Below, one piece after another: positions 18,365 through 26,211 of a DNA stretch of 34,276 bases (positions are counted from its first letter, which is position 1; each line of letters opens with the position of its first letter). The notes under the pieces were generated by a model that was not told the origin of the DNA, ran no database searches, and was given only the letters and a program-made list of their open reading frames with translations. The position numbers and the translations under genes were made by a program. The DNA comes from Parcubacteria group bacterium (GTDB lineage: Bacteria; Patescibacteriota; Minisyncoccia; Phycocordibacterales; 21-14-all-47-15), in the NCBI GenBank assembly GCA_016181845.1, contig JACOYO010000003.1, positions 80,185 through 114,460 on the forward strand. The letters are read 5' to 3'.

Positions 18365-18445
18365 AAGACGTCCGACCTCTGATGTGGTAATTATTTTATT
18401 TGCGGTCAATGCAGATGTTTTACCACTGCAGAGGTCGGACGTCTT
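18365..18445. repeat. 81-bp inverted-repeat element
   Basis: AAGACGTCCGACCTCTG (18365-18381) ... CAGAGGTCGGACGTCTT (18429-18445) perfect 17-bp arms, plus inner TGGTAA/TTACCA. Confidence 0.85.
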
Positions 18446-21848: not shown

Positions 21849-21873
21849 TTGTTGGACATCGGATGTCCAACAA
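21849..21873. repeat. palindrome TTGTTGGACATC-G-GATGTCCAACAA
   Basis: 25-nt near-perfect palindrome just past the stop of the cysteine desulfurase gene; second copy at 22182-22204. Confidence 0.9.
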
Positions 21874-21881
21874 TTTATGCC

Positions 21882-23153
21882 TTATTGTACAGGCCGGGCG
21901 TATTTTTTTAAAATGGCTGAAAGCGTCAATATCGTCTTGTCTATCTCTTTTTTTGTAGTTTCACGTCCCAAACTAAACCGCACCGAATTATCGGCGAGCC
22001 ACTTATGGCCGCCAAGCGCGGAAACCACATACGATGCGTCTTCGTCTTCACTTGAGCACGCGCTTTTTGCCGATACCGCGACGCCTTTTGCATCTAGTAA
22101 AATAACCATAAGCTGGCTTTCTATATTTGGAAAAGAAACATTTATATTATTTGGAAGCCGCGTAACACGTGATCCGTTAACTGTTGGACATCCGATGTCC
22201 AACAATTTTGTGATAAAGTAGTCGCGAAGTTTAGTTTGCCGTGCCGACTCTTTTTCAGCAACTGCGCGAGTTATTTCAATCGCTTTTGCCAAACCAACGA
22301 TAACCGGCACATTTTCCGTTCCGCTTCGCAATCCTTTCTCTTGCCCGCCGCCATAGAGCATCGGCACGAGTGGAACATTACGTTTTTTGTAGAGCACTCC
22401 GACTCCTTTCGGTCCATAGATTTTCGCGCCATTGAATGTGAGCAAATCAACGCCAAGCCGCTCAATATGCGCATCAAGATAATTCATCGCCTGGCACGCG
22501 TCAGTATGAAAATACGGATATCGGTTCAACTTGGACGTCGGGTTTCCAAGTTGACTTGGAAACCCGACGTCCAAGTTAGATTTTTCACTTAGTGGCTCAA
22601 CCACTAAGTGATTCTTTCTATGAAGGCGAATTATTTTTGCGATTTCGCGAATCGGCTGGATTGTTCCGATTTCATTGTTGGCATACATGATTGAAACAAG
22701 CACAGTTTCCGGACGAAACGCTTTTTTCAATTGGGCAAGATTTGCAATGCCTTCTTTATCTACGCCGAGGTAATCCACTTTCGCCTCGCCATTTTTTTCC
22801 AGCGCACGGCAGACATTAAGAACCGATGGGTGCTCAATCACGCTCGTAATGATGTGTGGCTTTTTTATTCCAAGCTCACGCGCCGCGCGAGCCACGCCGA
22901 AAATCGCCAGATTGTTTGCCTCCGTCCCGCCACTGGTAAAAATTATTTCATCTGGGTGTGCGAAAATTGCCCGCGCGATTTTCGCGCGTGAATCTCCTAT
23001 CGCCTTTTTTGCTTCCACACCTTTTTTATAAATCGCCGATGGATTCCCCTGCTCGCGAGAAAAATACGGCTTCATCGCGAGAAACACCCGCTTATCAAGC
23101 GGCGCGCCTCCGGCGTGGTCAAGATATATATTTTTTTTGGAAAACGAGCTCAT
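21882..23153 (-). CDS. cysteine desulfurase (NifS/IscS-like)
   Basis: Start MSSFSKKNIYLDHAGGAPLDKRV; FTSGGTEANNLAI, HTDACQAMNYLD, LTFNGAKIYGPKGVGVLY, GGGQEKGLRSGTENVPVIVGLAKA, KSACSSEDEDASYV. Confidence 0.95.
   Translation of the reverse strand: MSSFSKKNIYLDHAGGAPLDKRVFLAMKPYFSREQGNPSAIYKKGVEAKKAIGDSRAKIARAIFAHPDEIIFTSGGTEANNLAIFGVARAARELGIKKPHIITSVIEHPSVLNVCRALEKNGEAKVDYLGVDKEGIANLAQLKKAFRPETVLVSIMYANNEIGTIQPIREIAKIIRLHRKNHLVVEPLSEKSNLDVGFPSQLGNPTSKLNRYPYFHTDACQAMNYLDAHIERLGVDLLTFNGAKIYGPKGVGVLYKKRNVPLVPMLYGGGQEKGLRSGTENVPVIVGLAKAIEITRAVAEKESARQTKLRDYFITKLLDIGCPTVNGSRVTRLPNNINVSFPNIESQLMVILLDAKGVAVSAKSACSSEDEDASYVVSALGGHKWLADNSVRFSLGRETTKKEIDKTILTLSAILKKYARPVQ
22182..22204. repeat. palindrome TGTTGGACATC-C-GATGTCCAACA inside CDS
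   Basis: Same palindrome as 21849-21873, within the cysteine desulfurase reading frame (LLDIGCPTVNG). Confidence 0.9.
22528..22577. repeat. 50-nt palindrome (24-bp stem, 2-nt centre) inside CDS
   Basis: AACTTGGACGTCGGGTTTCCAAGT-TG-ACTTGGAAACCCGACGTCCAAGTT. Confidence 0.95.
22586..22610. repeat. 10-bp hairpin inside CDS
   Basis: CACTTAGTGG-CTCAA-CCACTAAGTG, adjacent to the 50-nt palindrome. Confidence 0.9.
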
Positions 23154-23339
23154 CGTGTTTGAGCGTAACATTCTGTTTCGTTTTTTGCAAAATCTAAAAA
23201 AGTATTGTAAAATCAAGAAACGAAAAGCGTAAAGCGAAAAACGTAAAACAACAGCGTAAAACTTAAAGTTTTTTGTTTTTCGTTGTTAATTTTCGTTTTG
23301 CATTTTTCGTTTTTCGTTAAATATTCAAAATATCACAAA

Positions 23340-25868: not shown

Positions 25869-26055
25869 AGCACGAAGTGATTGGACGGCCAGAGCAAGAC
25901 AACGGCTTGTCTTGCGTTAGGGCTCGAAAGCCGTAGCGATGTTTTTGTTTTGCGGAGCGAAGAAGCGGAGCAAAGGCAAAAACCGCGAGGCGGGGCTGAT
26001 AAAAATTTCCGTTAGGAAATTTATTAGTAGCCGAGCCCTGACTTTGGCGGACAAG
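25869..26055 (+). repeat. tRNA-tail-associated structured element, type C (tRNA-Lys locus, unit 2)
   Basis: Hairpin GCAAGAC/GTCTTGC 25894-25915; inverted T-arm TTAGGGCTCGAA 25917-25928; AAATTTCC-GTTA-GGAAATTT hairpin; diverged tail copy CGAGCCCTGACTTTGGCGGACAAG 26032-26055. Confidence 0.82.
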
Positions 26056-26211
26056 CACGAAGTGATTGGACGGCCAGAGCAAGACAACGGCTTGTCTTGC
26101 GTTAGGTTGAAAAGCGAATACATGGAGCTTTTCAAAACCTTTTGATATAGATTGCGAGTTTACGAGGCAATATATCCAAAAGGTGTACTGTTCCTGTAAG
26201 GAATCGAAAAG
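26045..26211 (+). repeat. tRNA-tail-associated structured element, type B (unit 3, upstream of tRNA-Leu TAG)
   Basis: 62-bp near-identical copy of 25860-25921 at 26045-26106, then GGTTGAAAAGCGAATACATGGAGCTTTTCAAAACCTTTTGA...TCCAAAAGGTGTACTG-TTCC-TGTAA-GGAA-TCGAA. Confidence 0.8.

Follow-up and report, generated by a model that had tools for sequence, protein, structure and literature searches.

In-frame REP-like palindromes associated with RAYT transposase genes in the cysteine desulfurase gene and other genes of a Parcubacteria group bacterium

The REP/REPIN-RAYT systems, or REPtrons, of Pseudomonas, E. coli, and Stenotrophomonas resemble the elements described here in consisting of short palindromes, in forming inverted pairs, in their patchy distribution, and in having one Y1/HUH RAYT gene per family that is flanked by the palindromes of that family (PMC3116915, PMC6006769, PMC8266576). 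RAYT-flanking REPs are already known (PMC6006769), and the E. coli, Stenotrophomonas, and Marinomonas enzymes have been shown to act on single-stranded REP hairpins (PMC8266576). Palindromes within genes have likewise been described, both as intragenic REPs and as Rickettsia palindromic elements (RPEs) (PMC3733652; PMC10969869; for the Rickettsia elements, Ogata 2000/2002 as cited in PMC10969869). Like the elements studied here, Rickettsia elements and intragenic GTAG/CGTC REPs occupy unrelated functional genes in frame, add roughly 8-30 residues, and hit DNA repair genes (uvrC in our case). In-frame palindromes of this sort, such as the Rickettsia elements, raise the question of what spreads them.

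The window analyzed here, a 34,276-nucleotide stretch of a Parcubacteria group bacterium (GCA_016181845.1, contig JACOYO010000003.1, positions 80,185 to 114,460), carries on its minus strand a cysteine desulfurase gene of the NifS/IscS type (nifS; open frame 21882-23216, likely start ATG at 23153), with orthologues in a same-genus genome, G002 (76% identity), and in a same-family genome of a sister genus, G001 (66%). As originally predicted, two palindromes lie within this open frame: one at 22528-22577, whose 24-nt arms (22528-22551 and 22554-22577) are 100% complementary and separated by a 2-nt loop, and a second hairpin, CACTTAGTGGCTCAACCACTAAGTG, at 22586-22610. Perfect stems like the 24-bp one are expected ~1.6e-9 times by chance in a window of the same size and composition. 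The NCBIfam NifS/IscS profile matches are broken at the insert, covering residues 31-199 and 234/235-438. The linker between HRKN and FHTDACQA, which holds the insert (22512-22610, minus strand), comprises 33 codons here versus 11 in both the G001 and G002 orthologues, a difference of 22 residues or 66 nt, and PDB alignments place the insert in this linker, ahead of the conserved FHTDA strand. Given that the orthologues have an 11-residue linker, the alternative that all homologues carry the stretch does not hold, and the original prediction of a lineage-specific, in-frame palindromic insertion is borne out. Because the linker is itself variable, the insert cannot be fixed to exact junctions; an AlphaFold model of NifS based on a 3-sequence alignment (mean pLDDT 44) was too poor for placing it and gave no confirmation of a surface loop.

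The larger palindrome is built from a 23-nt repeat of family B, ACTTGGACGTCGGGTTTCCAAGT, present twice in inverted orientation as a REPIN-like pair that encodes NLDVGFPSQLGNPTSKLN on the minus strand. The smaller hairpin belongs to a different repeat family (C) and encodes HLVVEPLSE on the same strand. A palindrome of yet another family (A), TTGGACATCCGATGTCCAA, lies elsewhere in the nifS frame (22184-22202, minus strand; encoding LLDIGCPTV), and a further A copy is found just 3' of the gene (21852-21870). The A copy within nifS brings no net gain in length, the protein being one residue shorter than its relatives at this site; judging from the alignment, this copy replaced native sequence rather than lengthening it, which simple insertion leaves unexplained.

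The nifS case is one instance of a genome-wide pattern. When the 741,763-bp genome was searched and the sequence examined in stretches around the matches, short palindromes were found in many dispersed copies that make up five families, A to E, against 0-1 matches for reversed-pattern controls. The exact family B core, TTGGACGTCGGGTTTCCAA, occurs 12 times (reversed-pattern control, 0), and 10 of these copies are in coding genes: two each in nifS, comEC, uvrC, and the gene for the family B transposase described below, and one each in xerC/D and rsmA. The inverted B pair recurs in frame and with nearly the same spacer in comEC (C8:104111-104154) and uvrC (C10:49370-49413), so the same palindromes do appear in other coding genes, as had been anticipated. 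Family C has 17 related copies, four of which flank or lie within a single RAYT gene (C11:87627-88381), and in three instances (nifS, C3:39618-39665, and C11:97932-97983) a B copy adjoins a C copy. Family A, TTGGACATCSGATGTCCAA, is represented by 19 exact copies in the stretches examined around matches, including one in nifS and the one 3' of it, and forms inverted pairs at C2:19138/19190, C3:5687/5736, and C7:64981/65043. Unlike those of family B, the A, C, D, and E copies lie mostly outside confirmed genes; large open frames at several A sites (one with a bL32-like tail, one resembling aspS, and one resembling a glycosyltransferase gene) and at one B site ahead of secD were excluded from the in-gene count because the palindrome precedes the likely start, these gene names having been read from the sequence rather than obtained by a search. 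Families A, B, and D are stop-free in all six frames, as are 20-30% of random hairpins, which weakens the idea that the families are special in this respect.

In-frame family copies also interrupt xerC/D, rsmA, ychF, dusB, and mnmA, the last of which carries one D copy. Alignment with relatives identified lineage-specific in-frame palindromes in uvrC, rsmA, ychF, and dusB, and the inserts in nifS, rsmA, ychF, and dusB are absent from the orthologues. The rsmA gene carries, all in frame, one palindrome of family B and three of family D, two of them inverted relative to each other as a pair (L024:1070-1107, 1521-1539). At the uvrC insert site (L126 compared with L030), a different palindrome, CCCACTTGGAGGTTCAACCTCCAAGTGGG, is found in the same-genus genome G002, and none in the sister-genus genome G001; a palindrome may either have been replaced in place or have inserted independently into the same loop, which would then be a hotspot. 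The palindrome families are patchy in relatives more generally, being absent from G001 and present in G006, a genome of another taxonomic family. The dusB insert (L041) contains a family A copy plus an unrelated palindrome, CCTTGCGATATATCGCAAGG, and CysS has a B-like copy at its end.

The genome encodes five RAYT-like Y1/HUH transposases (PF01797, Y1_Tnp), four of which score above the Pfam cut-off, with the family E gene falling just under it. Each gene has its own palindrome family, both flanking it and inside its coding sequence: family A at the RAYT-A locus (C2:19138/19190/19409/19955), B at RAYT-B (C1:327/575/839/1055), C at RAYT-C (C11:87627/87843/88116/88361), D at its own gene (C2:48517/48557/49060/49278), and E likewise (C11:7216/7248/7466/7976). 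In every gene, the internal palindrome stands a short distance upstream of the segment that contains the HUH motif (NHYH). RAYT-B and RAYT-C, which are 65% identical, have a second internal site in common, HQLGNPTSKLVRSSW / HQLSGSTTKLAIKSSW, with family B letters in one gene and family C letters in the other. Although phmmer found no match to RAYT-B in the PDB, a fold search with its AlphaFold model (pLDDT 88.7) gave as the best match 4er8, a RAYT bound to a REP hairpin (E 2.2e-6), followed by IS608 TnpA. In the model, the peptide encoded by the internal palindrome occupies a lower-confidence loop that precedes the HUH strand (residues about 55-70), and confidence also reaches a local minimum at the second internal site (about 150-160).

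The internal palindromes recur in a larger sample. We gathered 80 further RAYT loci by protein similarity, not by their palindromes, mostly from Patescibacteria lineages but including a Spirochaetia record and two Omnitrophota records; with the five loci of this genome added, the usable set came to 84. Measured from the HUH codons, the positions of perfect stems of ≥8 bp show peaks near -285, -70, +215, and +440 nt. A palindrome is present at the -90 to -40 site in 38 of the 84 loci versus 1.85 (maximum, 5) in synonymous-codon shuffles, and at the +195 to +245 site in 11 of 84 versus 1.9, while control windows gave 0-4. Among the 43 loci with a clear -70 hairpin, the locus's own flank was the joint best match among all loci in 36, and the total internal-flank match was 813 versus a permuted mean of 525, with 0 of 2,000 permutations as high. 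Thus, an internal palindrome and those flanking it change together from locus to locus. A quick RAYT tree with weak support requires the internal palindrome to have been gained or lost at least 17 times, with clustering, so a single origin of the internal palindrome is unsupported.

What the data show is a set of palindrome families with their copies, the association of these families with the RAYT genes, the placement of copies in frame within lineage-specific loops, and recurrent sites inside RAYT genes for their own palindrome. We read the nifS stretch, with a probability of about 0.8, as RAYT-associated REP-like elements, namely, a REPIN-like B pair and an adjoining single C palindrome, that inserted in frame into a length-tolerant linker, each family being tied to its own Y1/HUH transposase gene. 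Most likely, the transposase of each family would recognize its hairpin as single-stranded DNA and then copy or move the palindrome; fold and association point to RAYT-B and RAYT-C as likely movers of the nifS insert. A copy that lands in a reading frame would persist if it adds a multiple of three bases, is stop-free in that frame, and lies in a loop, such that loops tolerating extra residues and frames without stops would decide which copies survive. Cleavage and mobilization of the palindromes by these RAYTs, like tolerance of the insert by the desulfurase, are what we infer from this pattern. Since each family has an identifiable candidate enzyme, the question of what spreads in-frame palindromes becomes directly testable.

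These elements nevertheless differ from each of the described systems. Because the GTAG tag of classical REPs was looked for and not found, we call them REP-like rather than filing them as GTAG-type REPs: no conserved, unpaired GTAG-like tag stands next to the A and B palindromes, whose flanks are unconserved beyond two complementary bases. Subclass 2.6 and class 3 have also been reported without a GTAG tag (PMC6006769). A CGTC tag is similarly lacking at the stem foot in the A and B flanks, although CGTC occurs inside the family B hairpin. Whereas classical REPs are predominantly extragenic, family B is mostly in coding genes (10/12 exact copies), and a further departure from the REPtrons is that the RAYT gene carries palindromes within it, at recurring positions. 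The HUH-Y fold is shared with the IS200/IS605 TnpA proteins of IS608 and ISDra2 (2vjv and 2a6o are among the fold matches of the RAYT-B model), but the host-gene copies here are single palindromes or pairs, not an insertion sequence carrying its transposase. The parallel with Rickettsia palindromic elements drawn in the original prediction holds for behavior, albeit in an unrelated lineage; that prediction did not cover the composite (B plus C) nature of the insert, a RAYT-type gene for each family, or palindromes inside the RAYT genes.

Insertions in frame across many unrelated genes, of the kind seen in Rickettsia, would also be expected of a selfish, RPE-like palindrome that has no dedicated transposase, spreads by replication slippage or template switching, and finds in RAYT genes merely another landing place. 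CGTC-tagged REPs and RPEs have been reported without a dedicated transposase (PMC3733652), and many A and B copies (L016-L042) have stems lengthened by copy-specific complementary flanks of up to 11 bp (e.g., L022:1243, L029:1313, and L019:1257), as though they had landed in pre-existing hairpins or been lengthened through template switching. We nonetheless consider this explanation unlikely, since it does not account for the pairing of five families with five RAYT genes, each of which contains and is surrounded by its own palindrome, or for an internal-flank match that is far higher within than between the 84 loci.

Two further explanations fare considerably worse. The nifS palindrome region is predicted to form a very stable RNA fold (-61.9 kcal/mol; z = -11.5 versus dinucleotide shuffles), as would suit an attenuator or pause site selected in nifS, but unrelated genes contain the same sequence and the nifS genes of the nearest relatives lack it, making a regulatory RNA structure highly improbable. 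Even more improbable is an assembly or chimera artifact: amplification can give rise to a perfect palindrome, yet the copies number in the dozens and differ in context, many of them being in frame within conserved genes, and in G002, an independent genome, the same uvrC site is occupied by a different palindrome.

Returning to RAYT-associated insertion, the finding that transposase genes have internal sites for their own palindrome suggests that insertion is cis-preferential or that the gene is autoregulated, and it suggests that a protein can be remodeled repeatedly by its own recognition sequence. Self-binding under selection could account for the recurrent internal copies, as could a preference for insertion in cis into loops that tolerate it; given that gain and loss look frequent, we lean toward cis-preference plus tolerance. 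A functional role is a more tentative proposal, in which RAYT genes of Patescibacteria and some neighbors might keep their own recognition palindrome at fixed in-frame sites, either for self-binding of the gene or transcript in autoregulation or as an identity tag matching transposase and palindrome, with the internal copies changing along with the palindrome of the family. We found no description of palindromes inside RAYT genes, or of such a system in Patescibacteria, in the literature, our coverage of which was incomplete.

Other repeats were also seen in the window. An inverted repeat with 26-bp arms (92%) and 29 nt between them lies at 18365-18445 and has a REP-like core, GAGGTCGGACGTC. 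Between tRNA genes, GCAAGACAACGGCTTGTCTTGC occurs twice (25894-25915 and 26079-26100) and possibly represents a further palindrome family.
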